Positions 14,845 through 64,000 of a DNA stretch of 64,000 bases are shown piece by piece. The DNA comes from Desulfobaculum xiamenense. GTDB taxonomy: Bacteria > Desulfobacterota > Desulfovibrionia > Desulfovibrionales > Desulfovibrionaceae. How positions within the stretch are numbered: position 1 is the stretch's first letter; every line of letters begins with the position of its first letter. The stretch is taken from NCBI RefSeq assembly GCF_011927665.1, contig NZ_JAATJA010000002.1, positions 248,001-312,000 of the forward strand, given 5' to 3'. A program made the position numbers and the translations under genes. Under the pieces are notes generated by a model. The model was not told the DNA's origin, ran no database searches, and saw nothing but the letters and a program-made list of their open reading frames with translations.

Positions 14845-16050
14845 TCACTCCATGCCAAGCGGCCGGATGATGCGCGCCAGCACGCCCTGAAGCTTTGAGA
14901 TGGCCACGCCGTAGTTGGTGACCGGAACCCCGCGCCGCTGGCACTCGCGGATGCGGCGCAGCATTTCGCGGCGGTTCAGCATGCACGCGCCGCAGTGGAT
15001 GCACAGGGCGAAGCGTTCGAGATCCTCGGGGAAGTCGTGCCCGGCGTAGATTTCGAAATGCAGGTCCTTGCCGGTGTAGCGCTTCATCCATGCCGGAATC
15101 TTCACCCTGCCGATGTCGTCGTCCATGGCGTGGTGCGAGCAGGCTTCGGCCACGAGCACCGTGTCGCCGTCCTTGAGCGCGTCGATGGCCTGCGCCCCGG
15201 CCACCAGCGAGGCGAGGTCGCCCTTGTAGCGGGCGAAGAGGGTGGAGAACGTCGTGAGCGGCACGGATTCGGGCACGGTGGCCGCCACGGCGTCCACCAC
15301 CTGCGAGTCCGTGATCACCAGCGCCGGGGCGTCTTTCATGTTATCGAGGGAGGCCGCGAGGTCGTGCTCCTTGACCACGATGCCCGTGGCGTCGGCGTCG
15401 AGGATGTCGCGCAGCACCTGCACCTGCGGCAGGATGAGGCGGCCCTTGGGCGCGGAGAGGTCGATGGGCACCACGCAGGTCACCCACTGGCCGGGAGTGA
15501 CGAGGTCAGCGCACAGCATCGGCTCCTCGCGCATTTCGGCGGGGATGGCGTCGATGAGCGCAGTCTTGAGCGCGTCCACGCCAAGGCCCTCGCGAGCGCT
15601 GACTTCGACGGCCGTCAGGCCGTTTTGCGCGCACCATGCCGCGTCGGCCTCGGAAGGTCCGCGCAGGTCGCGCTTGTTGAAGGCCACGACGCAGGGGATG
15701 TCCAGTTCGCGGATGCGGCTGGCGATGTCGCGCTCGGCGTTGGTGATGCCCTCGCTACCGACCACGATGACCGCAACGTCGGCGCGCCAGAGCACCTTGC
15801 GCGTCGCCTCGATGCGCAGCGTGCCCAGCTCGCCCTCGTCGTCGAGACCGGCCGTGTCGTAGAAGGTCACCGGGCCGAAGGGCAGAAGCTCGTAGTGCTT
15901 GGCGACGGGGTCCGTGGTGGTGCCCGGATGTTCGGAAACGATGGCGATGTCCTGCCCGCACAGGGCGTTGATCAGGGACGACTTGCCAGCGTTTCTGCGT
16001 CCTGCGAGGGCGATGACCAGCCGGACGCCGCGGGGGGCCGTATCAGACAT
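14845..16050 (-). CDS. hydF: [FeFe] hydrogenase maturation GTPase HydF
   Basis: Scaffold GTPase on which the 2Fe subcluster of the H-cluster is assembled before transfer to HydA. The 401-residue protein has Walker A GRRNAGKSS and DTAGLDD in the GTPase domain (residues 10-165), a central dimerisation region, and the C-terminal [4Fe-4S] ligands: CSH in EACSHHAMDD and CIHCGAC near residue 345. GGAGGAAC before the ATG sets the start. It overlaps the end of hydE by 8 bp and closes the maturation operon. Confidence 0.95.
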   Translation of the reverse strand: MSDTAPRGVRLVIALAGRRNAGKSSLINALCGQDIAIVSEHPGTTTDPVAKHYELLPFGPVTFYDTAGLDDEGELGTLRIEATRKVLWRADVAVIVVGSEGITNAERDIASRIRELDIPCVVAFNKRDLRGPSEADAAWCAQNGLTAVEVSAREGLGVDALKTALIDAIPAEMREEPMLCADLVTPGQWVTCVVPIDLSAPKGRLILPQVQVLRDILDADATGIVVKEHDLAASLDNMKDAPALVITDSQVVDAVAATVPESVPLTTFSTLFARYKGDLASLVAGAQAIDALKDGDTVLVAEACSHHAMDDDIGRVKIPAWMKRYTGKDLHFEIYAGHDFPEDLERFALCIHCGACMLNRREMLRRIRECQRRGVPVTNYGVAISKLQGVLARIIRPLGME

Positions 16051-17047
16051 TGGTGTTCCTCCGTGGGGAAAAGCCTTGCGAGGCCGAGGGCACAAGCCCC
16101 AGCTCGCGGATCATGGTCTTGACCTCGTCTGCGAAGGCGAGTGCGTCCGAGGCGAAGGTGTTCTTGCCGGGATAGATGTTGTAGGCGGCGCGCACGTCCT
16201 GCGGTGTGAGCGAGGGCATGATGACGTTGCAGCCACGCATGAGGCCCGTGCGTCGCGCTCCCGGTTCCAGAGCGTCGAGGGCGCTGGTGGCCGGGATGTT
16301 GGCCTGCGGATTCATGACGCGCAGGAGCGCCGCCGCGCGGTAGTTCACGTCGAGGTCGCCGTGGGGCGCGTCGGCAAACGGCGTCTGCGGGTGCGGCACG
16401 AAAGGCCCCACGGCAAGCATGTCCAGCCCGAGGGCGCTCAAGCGCTCGATGTCGCGGGCGAGGATCTCCTCCGTCATGCCCGGAAGCCCCGTAATGACGC
16501 CCGAGCCGACCTCGTAGCCGAGTCCCTTCAGTTCTTCAATGCGCCGGAGTCTGTCGGCGAGGTTCTCGCCCGGACGGCAGCGGGCGTAGAGCGTCTCGTC
16601 CGTGGTTTCCAGCTTGATGAGGTACCGGTCCGCTCCGCAGTCCCTCCAGAGGGCGAATTCGTCGCGCGTGCGGTCGCCGAGGGACAGGGTCACGGCGATG
16701 TGGAAGCGCTCCTTGATCTCGCGCACAAGGGAGCCGATGTCCTCGGCGCTGTAGCTGAAGTCATCTCCGGATTGCAGCACGAGGGTGCCGAAGCCCACGG
16801 CGGGCAAAAGCGCCGCCGCGTCGAGTATCTGCTCGCGGTCGAGGCGGTAGCGCGTGGCGTGGGCGTTGGGCGCACGCAGGCCGCAGTAGTTGCAGCGGCG
16901 GCAGCAGTGGTTCGAGAATTCCACGATGCCGCGCAGGAAGATGTCGTCGCCGAACACGTCGTGCCGCGTGGCGTTTGCGCGGGCGTAGAGACCGGCGTCG
17001 TCCGCGCCGGAGAGAAGGTCGAGAATTTCGGAAACGTTCATGCTCAT
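16043..17047 (-). CDS. hydE: [FeFe] hydrogenase maturation radical SAM enzyme HydE
   Basis: Radical SAM enzyme that helps build the dithiolate-bridged 2Fe unit of the hydrogenase active site. The 334-residue TIM-barrel protein has the CxxxCxxC cluster motif in SNHCCRRCNYCGLR near residue 50. The following regions (LQSGDD, SLGDR, KLETTDETLYARCRPGE) match the HydE/PylB group. Start at 17047 has GAGGA upstream. It overlaps the preceding unknown gene by 4 bp and hydF by 8 bp, so all three are translationally coupled. Confidence 0.95.
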   Translation of the reverse strand: MSMNVSEILDLLSGADDAGLYARANATRHDVFGDDIFLRGIVEFSNHCCRRCNYCGLRAPNAHATRYRLDREQILDAAALLPAVGFGTLVLQSGDDFSYSAEDIGSLVREIKERFHIAVTLSLGDRTRDEFALWRDCGADRYLIKLETTDETLYARCRPGENLADRLRRIEELKGLGYEVGSGVITGLPGMTEEILARDIERLSALGLDMLAVGPFVPHPQTPFADAPHGDLDVNYRAAALLRVMNPQANIPATSALDALEPGARRTGLMRGCNVIMPSLTPQDVRAAYNIYPGKNTFASDALAFADEVKTMIRELGLVPSASQGFSPRRNTNV

Positions 17048-17640
17048 GCGGAAATGTCCTCGCGAGTGGCGGGGGCTGACTCGTCCATGGCCCGCAGGCA
17101 TTCGGACACGATGCGCAGTGCGGCGCGTTCGTCGGCCGTGGCGTGTGGCGGAATGTTTCCGGAGCGCAGCCAGGCGCTCAGGCGCTCCACGTCGGCGTGG
17201 ACGTGGAACCAGAAGCCTTCCGGCGCGGGGATGGGCGAGCGGGCGTAGTGCCCGAAATGGATGTCGTCGTCGATGATGAGAGCCGGAAACAGGCCGGGGC
17301 GCGCGGTTTCGTACAGGCGGACGCGGCCGGGATGCCGCCGTGCGAGGCCATGCAGAAACTCCCGCGAACGGGCGACGTGTTCCGCCATGGCCTCTGGCGT
17401 CCAGCCCTCGCGAAGCGCATCGAGGAAGTCGCGCATGGCCCGTCCTTCCGTCTCCGGGCGGATGCTCACCACGTCGAGTCCGCCGAAGTCCGGATGCGAT
17501 AGCGCCGTTTCAAGGGCTGCCGCGTGCGTCGGTGAGTCCGCGAAGTTTCCGTAGATGGCGGCATGCAGCACGATGCGCCGCCGCGCGGCCGCCAGAGCGG
17601 CCGGGATGTCGAGTGATGCGATTCCGGTGACGGCAATCAT
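17044..17640 (-). CDS. Unknown protein encoded first in the hydE-hydF operon
   Basis: A 198-residue protein I do not recognise. It has no signal peptide and no cysteine cluster. The N-terminal third is Ala-rich helix (LDIPAALAAARRRIVLHAAIYGN), the middle is helical, and the C-terminal half has a conserved-looking core (VRLYETARPGLFPALIIDDDIHFGHYAR, then GFWFHVHADVERL) that resembles small ligand-binding or phospholipase-D-like regulatory modules in a general way. AGGA precedes the ATG. It overlaps hydE by ATGA-type coupling, which suggests a role tied to hydrogenase maturation or its regulation. Codon use and GC match the neighbours. Confidence 0.75.
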   Translation of the reverse strand: MIAVTGIASLDIPAALAAARRRIVLHAAIYGNFADSPTHAAALETALSHPDFGGLDVVSIRPETEGRAMRDFLDALREGWTPEAMAEHVARSREFLHGLARRHPGRVRLYETARPGLFPALIIDDDIHFGHYARSPIPAPEGFWFHVHADVERLSAWLRSGNIPPHATADERAALRIVSECLRAMDESAPATREDISA

Positions 17641-17685
17641 GGAGCGTCCTTTCAGGGCGATGGCTGGCCTCCCCGTGGCCGGGCC

Positions 17686-17893
17686 GTATCGTTCATTGCC
17701 ACATGCAAGCCGTAGGCTCCGCCAGTCAAGGGGCCGCTGGCCCCCTGGACCCCCGATATGCGACGGGCCGTCTGCCTGTGGCAGCCCGTGCGGCTTATCG
17801 GAACGACGCCCTAGTGGGGATTGTCAAGGGAATCATTCCCTTGACCGGGTCCGGGCAGAGCCCGGCCGCCGGAGGCATTGCCCCGCGCAGCGG
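17686..17893 (+). repeat. Multi-hairpin intergenic repeat, copy A
   Basis: Begins GTATCGTTCATTG and contains in order the palindromes CAAGGGGCC/GGCCCCCTGG, GTCAAGGGAATcATTCCCTTGAC and CCGGGCagaGCCCGG, then GCCGCCGGAGGC and CCCCGCGCAGCGG. It forms a direct tandem pair with copy B, 20 bp away, between the unknown hyd gene and hydG. Confidence 0.85.
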
Positions 17894-17912
17894 TCTTTCC
17901 CGTGGCTGGGCC

Positions 17913-18119
17913 GTATCGTTCATTGCCACATGCAAGCCGTAGGCGCCGCCAGCCAAGGGGCCGCTGGCCCCCTGGACCCCCGATATGCGACGGGCCGTCT
18001 GCCTGTGGCAGGCCGTGCGGCTTATCGGAACGAAGCCCTAGTGAGGATTGTCAAGGGAATCATTCCCTTGACCGGGTCCGGGCAGAGCCCGGCCGCCGGA
18101 GGCCATGCCCCGCAGAGCG
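17913..18119 (+). repeat. Multi-hairpin intergenic repeat, copy B
   Basis: More than 90% identical by eye to copy A and in the same orientation, with the same start GTATCGTTCATTG and the same series of palindromes. It is followed by an extra partial block (GGGGCaaaGCCCC and GCCGCCGGAGGCC at about 18,133-18,162). Confidence 0.85.
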
Positions 18120-18218
18120 TACGGGTGCCGTGGCTGGGGCAAAGCCCCGGCCGCCGGAGGCCATGTTTTCGCATGGTCCGTTGGCCGGGGCGCATGATCC
18201 GGGGTAGTCGAAGCGGGC

Positions 18219-19631
18219 CTAGAAGTACAGGTCGCGCTCGCCGCTGTCGATACGCTTGATGCGTTCGCTGACGAGGTCGCGGCGCTTCTCGTCGGCCATT
18301 CCGGCGACCTCGTTTTCGAGCAGGATGCGACCGGCCTCGCGGGTCTCGGGGGAGGCGTAGTCGTTGAGGTACTCGTTGAAGGTCATGAGGGCGTTGGGAT
18401 GGCAGTAGGTCTGGATGAAGCCCTTCTTGGCCAGTTCCATGAAGTGCTCGCCAGTACGGCCGAGGCGGTAGCAGGCTGTGCACCACGAGGGCAGGTAGCC
18501 CTGCTGCACCACGTCGCGGATGACCTCGTCGAGGGAGCGGCTGTCGCCCACGCAGAACTGCTGGACGTCGGGGCGGTCGTATTCGGGGTCGGTGTACGCG
18601 CCGGGGTAGGTGCGTGAACCGGCGGAAATCTGCGACACGCCGACCTTGATTAGCTCGCTGCGGAACTCGGCGTTCTCGCGGGTGGTGAGGATGAGGCCGG
18701 TGTAGGGCACGGCCAGTCGCAGGATGGCGACCACCTTCTTGAAGTCGTGCAGGCTGATCGGGTAGGGCGGATTGTAGGACATCTCGGAGCCCAGCGCGGG
18801 TTCGAGGCGCGGGAAGGAGATGGTGTGCGGGCCCACGCCGAACATCTTTTCGAGCTCCTCGGCGTGCTGGAGCAGGCCGAGCATGTCGAAGCGGTAGTCG
18901 TACAGGCCGAAGAGCGCGCCCATGGCCACGTCGTCGATGCCCGCCTTCTGCGCGCGGTGCAGGGAGTTGAGGCGCCACAGGTAGTTGGTCTTGCGGCCGG
19001 AGAGGTGGACCTTCTCGTAGGTCTTGCGGTGGTAGGTCTCCTGGAAGCACTGGTAGGTGCCGATACCGGTGTCCTTGAGGGCTCGGTAGCCGTCCACGTC
19101 GAGCGGGGCACAGTTGACGTTGACGCGGCGGATCTCGCCGGACTTCTCGGAGACGGTGTCGTAGACCACCTGCATGGTGTGGGCGATCCACTTGGCGTCG
19201 AGGGTGGGGTGCTCGCCGTAGACGAGCAGCAGGCGCTTCTGGCCCAGATCCTCAAGCACGCGCACTTCGCTGGAGAGTTCCTCGTCGGTGAGGGTGCGGC
19301 GGTCGAGGTCGGAGTTGTCGGCCTTGAATCCGCAGTAGGCACAGCGGTTCATGCACTCGTTGGTGACGTAGAGGGGGGCGAAGAGCACGAGGCGGTTGCC
19401 GTAGATGCCCTTCTTCACCTCGCGGGCGGTGGAGAAGATTTCCTCGTCGAGTTCGAGGTCCTTGTTCTGGAGAAGCACTGCGGTGTCGAACTGGGTCAGG
19501 CCCTTGCGCTCGCGGGCCTTGGCCAGCGTCTCGCGCACGAGGGACGGGTCCGGGTTCTCGGTGCGTTCGATGGTGCTCCAGATTGCAGATTCGTCGATGA
19601 AGTCTCTTGCGTCGGTGGTGTCGATTTTCAT
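18219..19631 (-). CDS. hydG: [FeFe] hydrogenase maturation radical SAM enzyme HydG
   Basis: Splits tyrosine to give the CO and cyanide ligands of the H-cluster. The 470-residue protein has the radical SAM motif CMNRCAYCG near residue 95 and the HydG-specific C-terminal CxxC-N22-C motif (CTACYRLG...TYC, about residues 390-417), which binds the second, auxiliary FeS cluster. Length matches the family. It lies 15 bp after the TM1266-type regulator gene and is separated from the hydE operon by two copies of the intergenic repeat. Confidence 0.96.
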   Translation of the reverse strand: MKIDTTDARDFIDESAIWSTIERTENPDPSLVRETLAKARERKGLTQFDTAVLLQNKDLELDEEIFSTAREVKKGIYGNRLVLFAPLYVTNECMNRCAYCGFKADNSDLDRRTLTDEELSSEVRVLEDLGQKRLLLVYGEHPTLDAKWIAHTMQVVYDTVSEKSGEIRRVNVNCAPLDVDGYRALKDTGIGTYQCFQETYHRKTYEKVHLSGRKTNYLWRLNSLHRAQKAGIDDVAMGALFGLYDYRFDMLGLLQHAEELEKMFGVGPHTISFPRLEPALGSEMSYNPPYPISLHDFKKVVAILRLAVPYTGLILTTRENAEFRSELIKVGVSQISAGSRTYPGAYTDPEYDRPDVQQFCVGDSRSLDEVIRDVVQQGYLPSWCTACYRLGRTGEHFMELAKKGFIQTYCHPNALMTFNEYLNDYASPETREAGRILLENEVAGMADEKRRDLVSERIKRIDSGERDLYF

Positions 19632-19646
19632 GGCTCCGCCTCCCTT

Positions 19647-19889
19647 CTATACAAGCATGGATTTGACTTTGACATTGTCGAGCTGGCCGAGTCGTCCGGT
19701 CATTGCGCCGACCTGATCGGTCGACGCCTCGATGATGAGCGAAATGACGTTCACACCCCGTTCCTTGTAGGGAAGCCCCATGCGGCCGACGATGATGTCA
19801 GCGTACTCGGACAGGATGTCGTTGACTGCGGCCGCCGCAGCGCATCTGTTCTGGATGAAGATGCCGATGACGCCGATGCGTTTTTCCAT
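19647..19889 (-). CDS. TM1266-family iron-only hydrogenase system regulator
   Basis: An 80-residue ferredoxin-fold (ACT/NikR-C-like) protein, EKRIGVIGIFIQNRCAAAAAVNDILSEYADII-type, with the family's RMGLPYKERGVNVISLIIEA core. Such genes are found beside hydE/F/G and are annotated as putative regulators of the [FeFe] system; no DNA-binding domain is present and the mechanism is unknown. The start at 19889 has GGAG ten bases upstream; the ten-codon longer frame lacks one. It is the first gene of a transcript with hydG. Confidence 0.9.
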   Translation of the reverse strand: MEKRIGVIGIFIQNRCAAAAAVNDILSEYADIIVGRMGLPYKERGVNVISLIIEASTDQVGAMTGRLGQLDNVKVKSMLV

Positions 19890-20075
19890 AGCGTAGGTCT
19901 CCGTGGCCGTTTCGGGCAAGCCTTGCGCAGTGTCGGCGGGAGCTGTCCGCGCCGACGGCGCTGTTGCGGTTGCGATGTTTCGAACGGCTCTGCGAAGAGG
20001 GGAGGGAGGCGGGGGAGCCTTGGGCGATGGTGGTGCGGGCGTTCCCGCGTGTCGCCGATGACTCGCGCGTGGCCA

Positions 20076-20360
20076 CCCTCTGGTTCAGACGTGAGTCCTC
20101 CCCGCAGGTCGTATTGCGCATATCGGTAACACGATTTTTCGTTTCGTGTGTCTGTAGCCCCTACACATGTTTTGGCGGGGATGTCAACGGGTAATTTTAT
20201 GAAAGCCGTATGATATCAGCGTGTTACGTGAATGCGCAAAGGAGATGAGCCGTCCGGGCGCGAACCCGGCGGAGGATGGCGTGGGGGAGGGAGGGGCGCG
20301 AAGGGCGACGCCCTCTGGTTCAGACCGGTAGGTCCTTCCCGCAGGCTGCCCGTTGCGTAA
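20076..20360. repeat. Two direct copies of a roughly 45-bp element between hydB and the TM1266 gene
   Basis: CCCTCTGGTTCAGAC...GTCCT-CCCGCAGG...TTGCG occurs at 20076-20120 and again at 20311-20360; the first 15 bases are identical. Between them lie an ACACGA-N9-TCGTGT inverted repeat (about 20130-20150) and a minus-strand TTGACA (20182-20187), a candidate -35 for the TM1266-hydG transcript. The rest of the 474-bp gap (19890-20363) has no gene. Confidence 0.6.
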
Positions 20361-20363
20361 GCG

Positions 20364-20705
20364 CTAGAACTTGAGTTCCACGCCCTTGTCCTTCAGAGCC
20401 TGCACCTTGGCGGCGCGGTCGAAGTAGTGGGTGTGGAGCAGGTGATGCGACTTGTGACCGCAGGGACCCTCGCTCAGGAAACCGTCCTTGGCGTAGAGCG
20501 ACATGACGGTGGGGTTCTCCTGGGACTTGCGCATCTTATAGATGTTGGCGTCCGCATTGTAGACGGAGGCCTGGCGCAGGCCGATGAATTCCATGGCTGC
20601 GGCTGCGGCCTCGCGGGTCAGGTTCACGCCGAGGACGGCGTAACCGCACGCGATGCCAGCGGCCTTGATGAAACCACGACGGGTCAGCTTGGCGACGTTT
20701 TGCAT
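20364..20705 (-). CDS. hydB: Periplasmic [FeFe] hydrogenase small subunit
   Basis: The 113-residue small subunit of the Desulfovibrio-type dimeric periplasmic hydrogenase. It has a Tat signal (TRRGFIKAAGIACGYAVLG, residues 8-26) ending near AAAAAA, which exports the folded large-small complex. The mature part (SVYNADANIYKMRKSQENPTVMSLY-like, ending LKDKGVELKF) matches the family. The start MQNVAKL at 20705 has a GGAGG-type site. It is 10 bp after hydA in the same transcript. Confidence 0.95.
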   Translation of the reverse strand: MQNVAKLTRRGFIKAAGIACGYAVLGVNLTREAAAAAMEFIGLRQASVYNADANIYKMRKSQENPTVMSLYAKDGFLSEGPCGHKSHHLLHTHYFDRAAKVQALKDKGVELKF

Positions 20706-20715
20706 GGTTTCCTCC

Positions 20716-22035
20716 TTAGGCGAGCTTGCGCGCATGGAAGCGCTTGTTGACCTTGGCGATCATGCTCCGGAACAGGGAAGCCTGGACGTCGGGGTCCAGA
20801 GGCTGTCCGCCGCCGTTCACACAGCCGCCGGGGCAGGTCATGATCTCGATGAAGTGGTAGGGGGACTTGCCCGCACGCACTTCGTCGCACAGCTTGGCAG
20901 CATTTTCGAGGCCGGAAGCCACAGCCACCTTCACGGTGCCAAAGCCGGGGACGTCGATGTCCGCGGTATTGATACCTTCGTGGGTGCGCACGACCTTGAT
21001 GTCGGGGTTGGCGAGCTTCTGGCCGGAGAGCACCTCGTAGGCCAGACGCAGAGCCGCTTCCATGACGCCGCCGCTGGCGCAGAAGATGGTCGCCGCGCCG
21101 GTGGACATGCCGAGGGCCGGGTCAGGCTCGATCTCGGGCAGGGTCGCCCAGTCGATGCCGGCCTTCTTGATCATGTATGCCAGTTCGCGGGTATTGATGG
21201 TGGCGTCGATGTCGCGGAAGCCGCTGGAGTTCAGCTCGGGGCGCAGACCTTCGTACTTCTTGGCCACGCAGGGCATGATGGAGACGGTGTAGACCTTCTT
21301 GGGGTCAACGCCGGTCTGCTCCGCACCGTAGGTCTTGGCCATGGGGCCGATCATGCCGATGGGCGACCGGCAGGTGGACAGGTGCGGGAGAAGGTCGGGG
21401 TAGAACGTCTCGCAGAACTTGATCCAGCCGGGGCAGCACGAGGTGAACTGCGGAAGCGGCATGTCGCCGGTCTTCACGCGGTTGATCAGCTCGGTACCTT
21501 CTTCGAGGATGGTGACGTCGGCGGTCCACTCGGTGTCCCACACGAAATCGACGCCCATCTTCTTGAGGGCTGCGTGCATCTTGCCGCTGACGAACTTGCC
21601 GGTGGGCTCGCCGAAGCATTCGCCAAGGGCGTAGCGCACGGCGGGGGCGGGCATGGTCACGACGACGGTGTTGGGATCTTTGAGCTTCTCGAAGATCTCA
21701 TCGACGAAGGACACGTTCTCGTAGATGGCACCGAAGGGGCAGTTGGCCAGACACTGGCCGCAGTTCATGCAGGCAGCGGGATCGACGACCATGTGGACGC
21801 CGTCTGCGTTTTCCTGAATGGCTCCGGTGGGGCAGTAGCTTTCGCATTCGCCGCAGTTTTCACACTTTTCGGGGTCCACCTGCACGAAGAACAGCTCGTC
21901 CGGCTCGACGCCGTGAGGGGCGTTCATCATGTAGCGGATGGACTCCATCTCCTGCATCTTGCCCGCGCCTACGGGGGCGATGCCGGAGAGGTCGACCGGC
22001 TCGACAGGCGGCTTTTGTGCCTTACAACCTGACAT
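20716..22035 (-). CDS. hydA: Periplasmic [FeFe] hydrogenase large subunit
   Basis: Catalyses H2 oxidation or formation; in this family it works in the periplasm with HydB and feeds electrons to cytochrome c3. The 439-residue protein has a two-[4Fe-4S] ferredoxin domain (CENCGECESYCP and CMNCGQCLANCP, residues 65-115), then the H-cluster signatures TSCCPGW, MPCVAKKYE and TCPGGCVNGGGQP. It has no signal of its own, as expected for export with HydB. The start MSGCKAQK at 22035 has GGAGG; the 12-codon longer frame does not. Confidence 0.97.
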   Translation of the reverse strand: MSGCKAQKPPVEPVDLSGIAPVGAGKMQEMESIRYMMNAPHGVEPDELFFVQVDPEKCENCGECESYCPTGAIQENADGVHMVVDPAACMNCGQCLANCPFGAIYENVSFVDEIFEKLKDPNTVVVTMPAPAVRYALGECFGEPTGKFVSGKMHAALKKMGVDFVWDTEWTADVTILEEGTELINRVKTGDMPLPQFTSCCPGWIKFCETFYPDLLPHLSTCRSPIGMIGPMAKTYGAEQTGVDPKKVYTVSIMPCVAKKYEGLRPELNSSGFRDIDATINTRELAYMIKKAGIDWATLPEIEPDPALGMSTGAATIFCASGGVMEAALRLAYEVLSGQKLANPDIKVVRTHEGINTADIDVPGFGTVKVAVASGLENAAKLCDEVRAGKSPYHFIEIMTCPGGCVNGGGQPLDPDVQASLFRSMIAKVNKRFHARKLA

Positions 22036-22119
22036 GGCGATCCTCCTTCCGTTGTTTGTGCGGGCTTGCACCCGCGTTGTTCAACACCTCCAATGAAACC
22101 TGCGTGATGGATACAATTT

Positions 22120-57651: not shown

Positions 57652-58098
57652 CTAGGAGCGGGGACGCACCGTGAATACGGGGCACGGCGCGGACTTGACG
57701 ACCTTCTCGGCCACGGAGCCGAAGATGATGCGGTTGAGCCCGGTGCGTCCGTGGGAGCCGATGACGATGATGTCGCAGTCGAAGTCGCGGGCGGCGTGGA
57801 GGATTTCGTCCGAGGGGTAGCCGGTGGTTACGTGGCTTCGGGCGGAGACGTCCTTGAAGTGGCGGGACATGAATTCTTCCATGCTCTTGCGAGCGCCTTC
57901 GGCGATGTCGCCCACGAGGGCGTTGAGCTTGCTGGCGGGGACGTCGAAGCCCGCATAGTGTTCGAGGGTGGGGGCGGCGTAGAAGACGACGACCTCGGCG
58001 GTCATGCACTTGGCGAGGGTTTCGGCGTATTCGGCCACCTTCTCGCTGTGCTCGGAAAAATCGACGGCGCAGAGAATCCTGTTGACCTGAATCATCAC
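57652..58098 (-). CDS. Universal stress protein UspA (third of three)
   Basis: A 148-residue single-domain Usp: ILCAVDFSEHSEKVAEYA at the start and the ATP-binding pattern IVIGSHGRTGLNRIIFGSVAEKVVKSAPCPV near residue 110 (GxxG-N9-GS). Such ATP-binding members dimerise and support survival under starvation or oxidative stress. It is one of three adjacent paralogs on the minus strand. Confidence 0.95.
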   Translation of the reverse strand: MMIQVNRILCAVDFSEHSEKVAEYAETLAKCMTAEVVVFYAAPTLEHYAGFDVPASKLNALVGDIAEGARKSMEEFMSRHFKDVSARSHVTTGYPSDEILHAARDFDCDIIVIGSHGRTGLNRIIFGSVAEKVVKSAPCPVFTVRPRS

Positions 58099-58129
58099 GC
58101 TCCTCCTGTGGTGTTCTCCCCGGCCCGCG

Positions 58130-58576
58130 TCAGACGGCGCGTGGCCGTACGGTCAGTACGGGGCAGAAGGAGCTTCGCACGACCTTTTCGGCCACGGAGC
58201 CGAAGATGATGCGGTCGACGCCCTGCCGCCCGTGGGTGCCGATGACGATGAGATCGGCACTCATGTTCCTTGCCTCGCCCAGTATCTCCTGGGCCGGATA
58301 GCCCGCGGTGACGCGGGGGGTGACCTTCATGCCGGGAAAGCGCTCGGCCACGAAGGCGCGCATGCGTTCGGCCGCGCCCTTCATGATGCCGCCGACGAGA
58401 TCCTCGATGTGGGTCAGGGGGACGTCGAAGCTGAGATACTGGTCGAAGGAGGGGGCGGCGTAGAGGACGGTGAGTTCAGCGCCGGTGGATTTGGCGAGGG
58501 CGAGGGCGTAGTCGGCCACGATGGGGCTGTGTTCCGAGAAATCTATGGCACAGAGGATTCTGCGGATCGTTGGCAT
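58130..58576 (-). CDS. Universal stress protein UspA (second of three)
   Basis: A 148-residue paralog: ILCAIDFSEHSPIVADYALALAKSTGAEL at the N-terminus and IVIGTHGRQGVDRIIFGSVAEKVVRSSFCPV near residue 110. The ATP-binding loop is intact. Start at 58576 with GGAGGC upstream; the frame extends further upstream through the neighbouring gene but that part is not protein-like. Clearly related to its neighbours by tandem duplication. Confidence 0.95.
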   Translation of the reverse strand: MPTIRRILCAIDFSEHSPIVADYALALAKSTGAELTVLYAAPSFDQYLSFDVPLTHIEDLVGGIMKGAAERMRAFVAERFPGMKVTPRVTAGYPAQEILGEARNMSADLIVIGTHGRQGVDRIIFGSVAEKVVRSSFCPVLTVRPRAV

Positions 58577-58592
58577 GTGCGCCTCCGGTGTG

Positions 58593-58625
58593 TCCGGACC
58601 GTCGGCGCGGGGCCGACGGTCCGGA
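58593..58625. repeat. Long hairpin between two UspA genes
   Basis: A perfect 14-bp stem TCCGGACCGTCGGC/GCCGACGGTCCGGA with a 5-nt loop. No T run follows; it may act on message stability between the UspA genes. Confidence 0.65.
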
Positions 58626-58641
58626 TGCTTCATCCGGTCTG

Positions 58642-59085
58642 TCAGCTCTGGGGACGGATGGTCAGGACCGGGCAGGCCGAGCCCTTGACCACCTTCTCGG
58701 CCACGGAACCGAAGAGTATGCGGTCGATACCCTTGCGGCCATGCGTGCCGATGACGATCATGTCCACCTTTTCGTTGTGTGCCGTTTCGAGGATTTCCTC
58801 GGCGGCGTATCCGGTGGCGACCCTTCCGGTCACGGATACGTCGGTGAAGTTCTCGTCGATGAAGGTGTCCATGGTCATTTCGGCCCCGGACACGATCTCC
58901 CCGACGAAATTCTCGATGCTCGACGGCGGGACGTGAAATCCTACATACTGGTTGAGGGACGGTGCGACGTAGAGAACGATGATCTCCGCATTCATGCACT
59001 TTGCGAGGGCCTGGGCATATGAGGCAACGCTCGGGCTGTAATCGGAAAAGTCGACGGCGCACAGAATCCTGTTCACTTGAACCAT
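58642..59085 (-). CDS. Universal stress protein UspA (first of three)
   Basis: A 147-residue paralog starting MVQVNRILCAVDFSDYSPSVASYAQALAK, with IVIGTHGRKGIDRILFGSVAEKVVKGSACPV near 110. GGAGGAA precedes the ATG at 59085. The N-terminal sequence VQVNRILCAVDFS is shared almost exactly with the third copy, which marks recent duplication. Confidence 0.95.
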   Translation of the reverse strand: MVQVNRILCAVDFSDYSPSVASYAQALAKCMNAEIIVLYVAPSLNQYVGFHVPPSSIENFVGEIVSGAEMTMDTFIDENFTDVSVTGRVATGYAAEEILETAHNEKVDMIVIGTHGRKGIDRILFGSVAEKVVKGSACPVLTIRPQS

Positions 59086-59386
59086 GTCATTCCTCCGGTT
59101 GGTGCTTGCGCCCACAAGCCGCTACGGGCTGTCCTCCCTTTACGGGTACGATGGAGAAACCAATTGGCAAATCAGGATGTTCACACAATACAAGTAACCG
59201 CACGAAGGCTTGTTAGACAAGGAGTTTTTTATCCAGTATGTTGTCGGACATGGGCTGGCTGGGCGACTTGAGCGAGTCTGCCTCGCGGCGCGGCGGTTTC
59301 TCCACCGGGCCATGCGCGGGGAAAAAAATGCCGAGGGCCCAGCGGCGAAGTCCTTTAAAATCAGTATGTTGCGAATGCGTTCCTCG
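59086..59386. other. Divergent intergenic region between uspA and the sigma-54 gene
   Basis: About 300 bp with no gene. It should hold the UspA promoter on the minus strand and possible activator sites for the sigma-54 promoter; none could be identified. Confidence 0.4.
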
Positions 59387-60782: not shown

Positions 60783-61985
60783 CTACGCGGGGAGAACGGC
60801 GGCGAGATACTCGTATCCGGCGTCCACGGCGTATTCGTACGGCATGTCCCAGTGGATGCGCGCACTCATGGCGATGTGCGGCAGCGGGATGAAGGTCGCG
60901 GAGCCTTCCAGCAGTGCCTGATAGCAGGGGTCGGCCACCACGAGATCGACGTCCGCCTCGTTCATGAGCGCCGCGATGGTCCGTTCGTCGTCCGTGTCCC
61001 GGTCATGGGGACCGCGCTCTGCCAGCAGGCCCACGCGGCCCGGAGACTCCCGGAAGATCGGATCGCTCGGCGTGACGGAGATCACGTCCACGCGGGGAAC
61101 GCCGAAGTCGTTTCGCAGGCAGTGTTGCAGACCGTAGCCGAGCACAGGTTCGCCGATGACCAGCGCGCGTTTGCATGACGTCGCGCGTTGGGGAGTGGAC
61201 GCGGGGACGGTCTGCGAGCCGCGCAGCATGGCCAGAAAGGCGTCGCGCGCCGAAAGGCCCACGGGCATGCCCGTCACGTACGGGATGCCGTACTCGGTGA
61301 ACATGCGCTCGGCGAGGTCCAGACCGCTTGTGGAGACCACGGCGTTGATGGCCGCGCCCGGAGCCTGCCGCACGCCTTCGAGGGGGTCCGTCCGGTCGTG
61401 GCGGGGCGCGGAGAATACGCCCACCAGTTCGTGCCCGTCATTCTCGATGGCCTGAAGCAGCGGCTCCAGATGGTTTTCGCGACCCGTGGAGAGGTGGATG
61501 GCTCCGAGGACGTTGACGCCCCGTTCCCGCCGGGGGGCGGCCGGATCCATGAACGTGTCGGCCAGCGCGAGGAAGGCCTTGGACGCTCCCTCGGGATAGG
61601 GCTCGGAACCGGCGGTGGGGACCATGAAGACCGGCATGCCGGTGCGGGCCTGGATGGTCCGCGCGAAGCCCTTGAGGTCCGTGCCGATGATCTCCGAGAT
61701 GGGCGTTCCAGAAAGGGCAACGAAGCGGCGATTCAGGCCCTTGGCCGTCTTCACGATGTTGTCGATGAACTTGTCGTCGTTGCCGAGGATGACGTCCATC
61801 TCCAGCAGGCCCGCGCCCACGACCGTGGCCGGGCCGCGATACCAGCGCGGCTCGTCCTCGATGTTGATGTGCCATGCTCCCCCGGCCGGACCGTAGATCA
61901 CCACGAGGCCCTCGAAATCGTAGAGGGCGGAGCTGACTCCGAAGTAGCCGGTGGCGAGGGGCAGAAGGCGATGATATTCCTTCAT
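60783..61985 (-). CDS. Nitrogenase-like component 1, K-type subunit lacking cluster cysteines
   Basis: A 400-residue protein of the nitrogenase component 1 fold (NifD/K, BchN/B, CfbD group). Recognisable are the start YHRLLPLATGYFGVSSALYDFEGLVVIYGP, a metal-site-like core SGTPISEIIGTDLKGFARTIQ, and PVFMVPTAGSEPYPEGASKAFLALA. Where catalytic homologs carry the bridging-cluster cysteines it has Gly (GPAGGAWH, about residue 36) and Thr (SGTPISEIIG, about residue 94), so no cluster ligand is visible in its N-terminal half. It follows the D-like gene after 35 bp and should form a heterodimer or heterotetramer with it. Confidence 0.85.
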   Translation of the reverse strand: MKEYHRLLPLATGYFGVSSALYDFEGLVVIYGPAGGAWHINIEDEPRWYRGPATVVGAGLLEMDVILGNDDKFIDNIVKTAKGLNRRFVALSGTPISEIIGTDLKGFARTIQARTGMPVFMVPTAGSEPYPEGASKAFLALADTFMDPAAPRRERGVNVLGAIHLSTGRENHLEPLLQAIENDGHELVGVFSAPRHDRTDPLEGVRQAPGAAINAVVSTSGLDLAERMFTEYGIPYVTGMPVGLSARDAFLAMLRGSQTVPASTPQRATSCKRALVIGEPVLGYGLQHCLRNDFGVPRVDVISVTPSDPIFRESPGRVGLLAERGPHDRDTDDERTIAALMNEADVDLVVADPCYQALLEGSATFIPLPHIAMSARIHWDMPYEYAVDAGYEYLAAVLPA

Positions 61986-62020
61986 GTGAAATCCTTGTGT
62001 CTTGCGGTGTGCCGTTATCC

Positions 62021-63319
62021 TCAGATGAGGAAGTTGCGGCCGTAGATCCACTCGTAGTTGCTCACCGGATGCTCCAGCGCCTCGTGGGTCTGTTCGAGCA
62101 TCCAGAGCGTGGCCTCGTAGCCGTACTTCTGCTCCTGATAGCGCGAGAGGGGAACGTTCGCCGCGTTGACGCAGTAGATGCCAGCGTCCACGCCGTAGGC
62201 GAGTTCCACGTCGTCGAAGGATTCGGTCCTGCCGCACAGGGCGGGATGCGAGGCGTTGTAGACCATGATGTCCGGCTTGACCGCGCGCAGTCGCTCCACG
62301 AGCTCCCACTCGTAGGGCTTGATGGTGCCGCGGGCGAAGATCGTGTCCACGCTCAGCCCGTTCTGGACCAGAAATAGCGCCAGTTCGAAGGGGCTGCCGT
62401 TGATGCTGCATCCCACGGCGGTCTTTTTGCCGCGCAGATCGGCGAGCAGCGGCTCGGCGGCCCGGCGGGCTTCCTGCTCCCGGTCATCGATGGGCAGCGC
62501 TCGTCCGATGGCCTCGGAGATCAGACCGTACTGTTCCCTGATGGTTGAGAAGCCGTAGGAGGTGGGCGCGAAGCAACTGGGGATGCCCATTTCCTGCTCC
62601 ATCTTTCCGCACAGGCCGTTGGCGAGGGGATGCAGGACCACCGAAGCCCGCGCGTGGGCCATGCGGGAGAATTCCGCGAGATCACGGCACAGGGGAATCT
62701 GCACCACCGTCTCCATCCCGGCCTCGGTCAGCACCTGATACAGCTCCCCGGATTCGGAAAGCGGCATGAAGGTGCCAAGCAGGTTCACGACGCCGTCGTC
62801 GAGGCGGCGCGGCTCGTGCTTCAGGAATTCGAAGAACGAGGTGTAGGCCGAAGTGAAGGGCGATTCCTTGAGACCGATGGTGATGGGGGCCATGGCCCCG
62901 AGGATGATCCTCCTACCGGTCTTTTCCTCCAGCCGCCTGATGACGCCGGAGAAGTCGGTGCCCAGAATGTAGTCCGGGCAGCCCACGATGAGGAAGACCA
63001 CTTTCTCGTCGCGCCGGGCGATGATATCGGCGACGCCTCGTTCCACCTTGTCCAGATGGTTGCCGAGGGTCATGTCCAGTTCGGACAGGCAGAGCATGTG
63101 GAAGCGGTCGGTGAAGCCACGGGCGTGGGCCATGAAGGCCGAGTGGCGCAGGCAGGCCGACGGTCCGGCCATGACGGCCACGGACTCGGGCAGCAGCAGG
63201 CAGGTTTCGATGACGCCCCATCCGGCAAGATTCGGCCCCACGCCCTCAAGGGGCGCGAAGGGAAAGTCGGGTTTCTTTCGCAGGTGCTCCAGCCTGATCC
63301 CCGCGTGATCCAAATCCAT
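62021..63319 (-). CDS. Nitrogenase-like component 1, D-type subunit
   Basis: A 432-residue NifD/K-family protein. Candidate cluster cysteines are C40 (IETCLLL), C56 (GPSACLRH), C77 (HMLCLSELD) and C114 (VGCPDYILGTD); the last three sit where NifD and BchN have their shared-cluster ligands. Further cysteines occur near 248 and 260 (GLCGKMEQEMGIPSCF). The C-terminal His-rich FeMo-cofactor pattern of true NifD is not evident. The gene lies between the NifH-like ATPase and the K-like subunit, in an operon of group IV type (not nitrogen fixation). Confidence 0.88.
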   Translation of the reverse strand: MDLDHAGIRLEHLRKKPDFPFAPLEGVGPNLAGWGVIETCLLLPESVAVMAGPSACLRHSAFMAHARGFTDRFHMLCLSELDMTLGNHLDKVERGVADIIARRDEKVVFLIVGCPDYILGTDFSGVIRRLEEKTGRRIILGAMAPITIGLKESPFTSAYTSFFEFLKHEPRRLDDGVVNLLGTFMPLSESGELYQVLTEAGMETVVQIPLCRDLAEFSRMAHARASVVLHPLANGLCGKMEQEMGIPSCFAPTSYGFSTIREQYGLISEAIGRALPIDDREQEARRAAEPLLADLRGKKTAVGCSINGSPFELALFLVQNGLSVDTIFARGTIKPYEWELVERLRAVKPDIMVYNASHPALCGRTESFDDVELAYGVDAGIYCVNAANVPLSRYQEQKYGYEATLWMLEQTHEALEHPVSNYEWIYGRNFLI

Positions 63320-63344
63320 ATGGTTCTCCTTGTTCGCCGTGCGT

Positions 63345-64000
63345 TCAGACGGCTTTTCGTTCAGCACCGAAGCCGACGATGGTTTTGGCGAGGTCGAAGA
63401 AGCGTTGCGAGGTGGGCAGCGTGCGGTCGCCCTCAACGATGGTCTTTCCTTCCTCTTCGAAGGTGTGGATGGCCCTGTCGCGGGGGATGATGCCGATGAC
63501 GGACGTTCCCATCTCCTCGGCGAAGTCCGTGACGCGTTCCACTTCGTCGGCCATGTCGCGGCAGTTGAGGATCAGGCCGCCGAGCTGGGCGTAGTTGCGG
63601 TCCGCGAAGTTGCGCAGGGCCATGATGATGTTCTTCGCGGCCAGCAGGGCCATCTTCTCGCCAGAGGTGACGATGCACACCTTGTCCGCGAAGCCCTCGC
63701 GCATGGGCACGGCGATGCCGCCGCAGACGATGTCGGCGAGGATGTCATAGAGCACGACGTCCGGCTTGTAGGTCTCGTAGGCGCCCATTTCATCCAGAAG
63801 TTCGAAGGCGGTGAGCATGCCGCGGCCGAAGCAACCCACGCCGGGGGTGGGGCCGCCCACCTCCATGCAGGCCACGTTGCCGAAGCCCTGTCGGACCACG
63901 GCGTCCAGCCGGTCCGGGCGGCCGTTCTCCTGCATGTACTGCAGGATGGGCGGCGGGGGCGTGCCACCCAGAAGATTGATGGTGGAATCGGTCTTGGGAT
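63345..64000 (-). CDS. NifH-like ATPase (dinitrogenase-reductase type), N-terminus beyond the window
   Basis: The C-terminal 217 codons of a NifH/BchL-family protein. It begins at PKTDSTINLLGG (Walker A lies upstream of the window) and has the two cysteines that hold the intersubunit [4Fe-4S] cluster: GPTPGVGCFGRG and DIVCGGIAVP. The switch II region VLYDILADIVCGG and the CIVTSGEKMALLAAKNI stretch are standard. It would deliver electrons with ATP hydrolysis to the D/K-like complex encoded 26 bp downstream. Confidence 0.93.
   Translation of the reverse strand, partial: PKTDSTINLLGGTPPPPILQYMQENGRPDRLDAVVRQGFGNVACMEVGGPTPGVGCFGRGMLTAFELLDEMGAYETYKPDVVLYDILADIVCGGIAVPMREGFADKVCIVTSGEKMALLAAKNIIMALRNFADRNYAQLGGLILNCRDMADEVERVTDFAEEMGTSVIGIIPRDRAIHTFEEEGKTIVEGDRTLPTSQRFFDLAKTIVGFGAERKAV

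Follow-up and report, generated by a model that had tools for sequence, protein, structure and literature searches.

The window analysed here, a stretch of 64,000 nucleotides from Desulfobaculum xiamenense (contig NZ_JAATJA010000002.1, positions 248,001 to 312,000), ends within an operon that encodes a nitrogenase-like system, composed of a NifH-like ATPase (H) and two subunits of the nitrogenase component-1 type (D and K). The operon consists of five genes in the order HydL-HydE*-H-D-K, with H-D-K as the last three, and is split by the window end. It was therefore read past that end in locus L006, whose positions plus 58000 give window positions. HydE* and HydL are labels coined in this analysis. 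The five genes are:

60783-61985, minus strand: K, nitrogenase component-1 type subunit of 400 amino acids, with no cysteine at the three P-cluster positions.
62021-63319, minus strand: D, nitrogenase component-1 type subunit of 432 amino acids, with Cys56, Cys114, Cys304 and Cys383 invariant in 13 orthologues.
63345 to beyond 64000, minus strand: H, NifH-like ATPase, cut by the window end; the complete gene (L006:5345-6112) encodes 255 amino acids from a TTG start.
L006:6109-7119, minus strand, beyond the window end: HydE*, HydE-like radical SAM protein with the motif CX3DX2C.
L006:7146-8831, minus strand, beyond the window end: HydL, [NiFe]-hydrogenase large-subunit-like protein, start codon uncertain.

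H, D and K, all on the minus strand, were confirmed at the place given in a first-pass annotation of the window, as were the short gaps between H and D (25 bp) and between D and K (35 bp), and the TTG start of H overlaps the stop codon of hydE*. The three-gene operon of that annotation is real, but is really one of five genes, as reading the upstream genes, a check it had itself proposed, revealed a radical SAM gene (HydE*) and a [NiFe] large-subunit-like gene (HydL). Pfam matches of H to Fer4_NifH (4e-76), and of D and K to Oxidored_nitro (2e-26 and 2e-27), are far above chance. H retains the P-loop and both cluster cysteines, its PGVGC and DIVCGG motifs aligning with the Fe protein 1cp2, so that the earlier description of a NifH-like ATPase holds. 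The genome (3.64 Mb in 8 contigs) has five PF00142 matches, of which only H is full length; the other four span 36-68 model positions. The reported absence of nitrogen-fixation genes nearby also stands, as no nif genes were found by eye among the open reading frames (ORFs) around the operon.

The nitrogenase-like proteins belong, as proposed earlier, to an uncharacterised type. H scores 281.9 bits against the NifH equivalog (cut-off 394.35), 171.8 against BchL (345.15), 157 against BchX (331.2) and 274 against CfbC (402), whilst D scores 36.7 against BchN (419.95) and K 23.4 against the CfbD model (268.4); all are below the curated cut-offs. In trees which, like the alignments of D and K, cover 13 of the 14 loci known to us (L128, from genome G509, was left out), D and K form firm clades (99/99 and 100/96) beside proteins of the distant variant G471 and of Treponema. 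The phylogenetic placement suggested in the first-pass annotation was run against Nif and Bch only, without Mar, Isr or Cfb sequences, and H, D and K fall outside both clades; the reference rows, including Bch, are long-branched, and only the clades inside the new group are firm. The FeMo-cofactor ligands are indeed not evident, since the column of NifD Cys275 holds Leu or a gap in 13 D sequences and the region of His442 contains no conserved His. Of the invariant cysteines of D, Cys114 occupies the position of NifD Cys154 in a profile alignment and Cys56 (GPSAC) appears, by eye, to correspond to Cys88. K has no invariant cysteine across 13 loci; its invariant stretches lie around GPAGGAWH and EDEPRWYR. 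In an AlphaFold2 model (pLDDT 84.9), D takes the component-1 fold, with chains of nitrogenase, DPOR, NifEN and Mar all similarly close (Z ~23-27). Nitrogen fixation was rejected as a function on the missing FeMo-cofactor ligands and the score of H below the NifH cut-off, and protochlorophyllide-type reduction on the Bch scores. CfbCD resembles the present system as a nitrogenase-like reductase in the making of a metal cofactor, but F430 synthesis was likewise rejected, on Cfb scores below cut-off and on the presence of K, which Cfb is described as lacking in the account of PMC11423573.

The gene directly upstream of H encodes a relative of the [FeFe]-hydrogenase maturase HydE. HydE* scores 257.7 bits against the HydE equivalog TIGR03956, just above the cut-off of 254.6 (the orthologue in locus L054 reaches 303.3), and aligns with solved HydE across 276 residues (4e-76). 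Its cluster motif is CX3DX2C and not CX3CX2C: all 14 orthologues have Asp51 where all 17 canonical HydE loci have Cys, both sets having been picked by similarity and not by motif (L071 and L126 are the same gene). Further signature positions of HydE* are His42 for Glu, and Ala251, Ala253, Asn254 and Thr255 for Pro, Thr, Thr/Ser and Ala; Cys281-Asn282 stand in place of the Val/Leu/Phe/Ala and Thr/Ser of canonical HydE. At the level of sequence, the Asp change is a conserved signature and not a sequencing error, and together with the other signature changes it suggests that the radical SAM chemistry has been lost or altered.

HydL, the product of the first operon gene in 11 of the 14 loci, is a relative of [NiFe] large subunits by score (PF00374, 280.8 bits with a cut-off of 25.8; Pfam 3e-83), by its best solved [NiFe] large-subunit chain (8e-74) and by fold (TM ~0.75). 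In all nine aligned sequences (9 of 11 loci, leaving out L048, in which a contig end cuts the gene, and L128) the CGxC (RxCGxC) motif is replaced by xC[LI]CN, whilst PCN[AT]C is kept and its following His is gone. An active [NiFe] hydrogenase was rejected as the identity of HydL on the loss of the RxCGxC and C-terminal DPCxxC..H motifs. No small-subunit gene was seen by eye beside HydL in L006 or found among the shared neighbours, though no dedicated search was made. A large-subunit-like protein without H2-activation residues in a hydrogenase assembly context recalls HoxV/HupK as described in PMC12134894; those proteins, however, serve [NiFe] hydrogenases, and the nine NCBIfam matches of HydL include hydrogenase large-subunit models but not the HupK model. 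By tblastn, HydL was not found beside HydE*-HDK in L054 and L055, and the sequence of L056 starts at HydE*.

Orthologues of D (at least 69% identity) occur in 7 of 119 related genomes, the window's own included, and in all seven the order HydL-HydE*-H-D-K is identical. Matches of D in 39 other relatives are weak (best E 2.5e-12), and all seven of the loci scanned there proved to be NifE. Nine loci came out of a scan of a genome collection; three were already known (L050, L051 and L053, counted as G021, G025 and G061) and six were new (L048, L049, L052, L054, L055 and L056). The more distant among these are L054 and L055 from Desulfofervidaceae, with 49-51% identity in D, and L056 from Desulfobacterales, with 43%. 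A phylum-wide profile search (E <=1e-40) retrieved 7 of 395 genomes and added G509 and the distant variant G471. With G197 and G229 counted as G122 and G123, operon orthologues are present in 14 genomes altogether.

The neighbourhood of the operon was compared by all-against-all clustering of ORFs of at least 90 amino acids in 15 loci, i.e. the 14 orthologous loci and L127 of G471. The named families beyond the operon that are common to at least 3 of the 15 loci are HydF, aspA, HypC, HypD, HypE, HypF and HydA/HydB, and the unnamed shared clusters are, as far as coordinates show, overlaps in other frames with the operon or with hyd, hyp or aspA genes. Within the fetched stretches, 9 of 14 loci contain a hyd, hyp or aspA gene, with hyp genes in eight and hydF in six. 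The gene aspA is known to accompany hydF, providing ammonium for the bridge of the H-cluster according to PMC11736057. The association is illustrated by three loci, the gene names of L054 having been verified separately:

G021: aspA-hydF-hydL-hydE*-H-D-K-hypD-hypE.
G061: aspA-hydF-hydL-hydE*-H-D-K-hypC-hydA-hydB.
L054 (Desulfofervidaceae): hydA-hydB-hypE-hypC-aspA-hydF-hydE*-H-D-K-hypF-hypD.

The position of HydE* and HydL upstream of H-D-K, and the hydA, hydB, hydF, aspA and hypCDEF genes that cluster by the operon in relatives, point towards the assembly of a hydrogenase cofactor. Neither a tetrapyrrole nor a sulfur compound, both named in the first-pass annotation as possible substrates, is supported by these neighbours, and of its three options 'something new' comes nearest.

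In the canonical route of maturation, as set out in PMC13360658, HydG makes Fe(CO)2(CN) from tyrosine, after which HydE and HydF act. HydG was above cut-off in only three of the 14 operon genomes (G000, G058, G509) and was not found over cut-off in the other 11, canonical HydE was present in five (G000, G025, G048, G058, G509), and by these models nine genomes have neither. G048 and G068 are each a single contig without HydG above cut-off, and an assembly gap is therefore an unlikely cause of its absence in these two. An exchange is seen between two genomes of one genus, in which G041, without the operon, has hydB-hydA-hydF-hydE-aspA-hydG and G068, with the operon, has hydB-hydA-hydF-aspA, hydE and hydG being missing there. 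In G025 a truncated hydG of 160 codons, whose match to HydG is confined to residues 7-138, lies directly before aspA. HydA and HydF are retained in the HydG-less genomes examined: HydA, complete with its three H-cluster motifs, is encoded in eight of them (G021, G025, G048, G061, G068, G120, G122, G123), and HydF with its cluster motif in the same eight and in G121. The genome-wide search for HydA covered seven of the 14 operon genomes, with three more taken from loci, and that for HydF likewise covered seven, with four more from loci. Among the relatives, HydF is above cut-off in 7 of 7 operon genomes versus 37 of 119 overall (Fisher p = 1.8e-4, kinship not corrected).

From this genome context, we consider it distinctly probable that the general role of the operon lies in the assembly of the H-cluster. 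Our fuller reading, to which as a whole we give a probability of about 0.6, is that the operon encodes a nitrogenase-like system for H-cluster assembly which can replace HydG and HydE, probably starting from Fe(CN)2CO made by the Hyp proteins. HydE*, just above the HydE cut-off, and the apparent partners HydF and HydA are features shared with the canonical HydE/HydF/HydG system, from which the operon system differs by Asp in place of the middle cluster Cys, by the frequent absence of HydG and by the added nitrogenase-like reductase.

The detailed chemistry of such a route can be drawn only tentatively. It might constitute a second, HydG-independent pathway, in which Hyp-made Fe(CN)2CO passes via HydL to HydE*, without ordinary radical SAM chemistry, and a reduction by HDK leads to the [2Fe] precursor on HydF. 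In such a scheme, HypCDEF would supply the Fe(CN)2CO unit, HydL would hold it in passing, as HoxV does for [NiFe] hydrogenases, and HydE* would bind the iron unit with changed chemistry. H would feed electrons to D-K at the expense of ATP, and D-K would perform a hard reduction, Fe(II) to Fe(I), that takes the place of the radical chemistry of the canonical route. Fe(CN)2CO is richer in CN and poorer in CO than an iron of the H-cluster, so that a ligand change would be needed; nitrogenases reduce cyanide, and D-K might alternatively remove or convert one CN ligand. HydF would then take up the [2Fe] unit, the bridge would be completed with ammonium from AspA, and HydA would be loaded.

The distant variant G471 places related genes in a similar setting. 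One stretch of its genome (L127 1740-19388) contains hydA-hydB-hydE-hydF, two complete H-D-K sets and hypF, with hypC-hypD-hypE further on; the hydE in this locus is canonical, with CX3CX2C. No [NiFe] large subunit was recognised in G471, the best match covering 67 positions with 39 bits, and its Hyp proteins are thus without an obvious [NiFe] client. The HydG-type sequence of this genome (L142, G471:C69:36798-38093) ends a longer frame of 664 amino acids from the first ATG, with extra N-terminal sequence. Related H-D-K operons also stand beside iron ABC transporter genes on plasmids, in Treponema saccharophilum pTS1 (L145 13979-20275) and Sporomusa termitida pSPTER (L146 5504-12828); these belong to uncharacterised nitrogenase-like groups.

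Several observations weigh against a replacement of HydG and HydE by the operon. The window's own genome retains canonical hydE, hydF and hydG, and G058 and G509 also have both HydG and canonical HydE, G509 being of the genus of G068. G471 too encodes HydG elsewhere, with its full C-terminal motif, which argues against simple replacement there. Among the nine genomes that have neither HydG nor canonical HydE, a single-contig assembly is known for G068 only, and G119-G124 are metagenome assemblies of unstated completeness. The association with HydG loss is modest, as HydG is missing in 5 of 7 HydF genomes with the operon versus 6 of 30 without it (Fisher p = 0.016, kinship not corrected). Three of those six (G052, G089, G101) have no HydA above cut-off, and the other three (G012, G035, G042) have HydA, HydE and HydF, yet neither HydG over cut-off nor the operon, so that the absence of HydG has other explanations too. 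In five of the 14 loci (G000, G025, G048, G058, G119) the fetched stretch holds no hyd, hyp or aspA gene. Nearby hyp genes are in any case not proof, because 12 of the 15 genomes examined have a [NiFe]-type large subunit besides HydL. Asp is able to ligate iron-sulfur clusters in other proteins, and HydE* may therefore still be a radical SAM enzyme. The canonical [FeFe] genes of the window's own genome, and a further group of genes near the operon, are located as follows:

14845-22071, minus strand: canonical [FeFe] set of HydF, HydE, HydG and HydA, lying about 39 kb away from HDK.
14845-16095, minus strand: HydF, the likely partner; longest frame from TTG, true start possibly later.
20716-22071, minus strand: HydA, [FeFe] hydrogenase, the likely client; longest frame from GTG.
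57652-59115, minus strand, on the downstream side of the operon: three tandem universal-stress-protein-like genes, identified by eye.

The strongest rival to H-cluster assembly, although in our judgement an unlikely one, is a role in [NiFe]-hydrogenase maturation, in which HydE* and HDK, with HydL as holder, would supply or adjust the CO of Fe(CN)2CO. Such a role would fit the presence of hyp genes at eight of the 14 loci, the kinship of HydL with [NiFe] large subunits and the possession of a [NiFe] hydrogenase by most of these genomes, and the anaerobic source of CO is presented in PMC12134894 as the most pressing open question of that field. However, hydF, hydA, hydB and aspA also adjoin the operon, HydF accompanies it in every operon genome among the relatives, and HydE is a family of [FeFe] maturases; a [NiFe] role would leave the loss of HydG unexplained. 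Moreover, beyond HydL no [NiFe] large subunit was found in G119 and G121, both metagenome assemblies, nor, as noted, in G471. HydL might instead be the product itself, a metalloenzyme that relies on HydE* and HDK for the building of its site, and its place at the head of the operon and the Cys motifs kept in all nine aligned sequences are in keeping with this idea; the lack of HydL beside HydE*-HDK in L054 and L055, where the linkage to hydF, hydA and hyp is strong, speaks against it, and we hold it to be the least probable of the readings considered.

It is also improbable, if slightly less so, that HDK is a reductase of a small sulfur compound or other substrate like Mar and Isr, with the hydrogenase genes as bystanders. 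Among solved sequences MarD matches D best, and Mar is also among the folds nearest to that of D, but the match amounts to only 50 bits over 242 residues, D has no equivalent of Cys275, and sulfur-metabolism genes are missing from the shared neighbours, which are hyd, hyp and aspA genes. The sulfur-linked type that includes an R. rubrum gene we take to be Mar. That type is characterised in PMC3464626 by a Cys275 equivalent and by neighbours from sulfur metabolism. Isr and Mar likewise pair a radical SAM gene with HDK, and in the isethionate reductase IsrBHDK the radical SAM gene precedes H-D-K, as it does here; the best SWISS-PROT match of IsrB is BciD and not HydE, to whose family the radical SAM partner in the present operon belongs, and the gene context reported for Isr is another one (PMC11423573). 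The same account gives the Isr K subunit three P-cluster cysteines and its D only the equivalent of Cys88, whereas K here has none of the three and D has Cys114 at Cys154 in addition to Cys56 at Cys88 (the latter by eye). Sulfur compound reduction of the Mar/Isr kind was rejected on this cysteine pattern and on the shared neighbours.

A link between nitrogenase-like genes and hydrogenase maturation has been touched upon before. Dos Santos et al. 2012 mention in one sentence NifHEN-like genes with hydrogenase maturation proteins in Coprococcus catus and other Firmicutes (PMC3464626), and this sentence, with no experiment, is the prior art we found in the open-access papers searched. The Firmicutes group shares with the present operon a nitrogenase-like H and two component-1 proteins tied to hydrogenase maturation proteins. 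Compared by description only, it differs in that its brief account in PMC3464626 mentions neither a variant of HydE nor HydL, and neither a connection with Hyp nor a loss of HydG. G471, with its two HDK sets at one locus, may represent this Firmicutes type. As far as the open-access papers searched show, HydE* with CX3DX2C, HydL, the link to hyp genes and the loss and decay of HydG in operon genomes are new.

The CO and CN- ligands of the H-cluster are attributed to HydG. Five of eight clostridial acetogens with [FeFe] hydrogenases nevertheless have no detectable HydG according to PMC9431212, which, in its discussion of the point, offers scenarios but no firm explanation. The operon described here provides a concrete candidate for HydG-less [FeFe] hydrogenases in another group of bacteria, and HydE* adds a radical SAM family whose cluster motif carries a conserved Asp. 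A nitrogenase-like enzyme thereby gains a likely role in the building of an organometallic cofactor, and the operon may bear on the anaerobic CO source of [NiFe] hydrogenases discussed in PMC12134894. If the tentative HydG-independent pathway outlined above is real, the machineries of nitrogenase, [NiFe] hydrogenase and [FeFe] hydrogenase would be joined in one assembly line.

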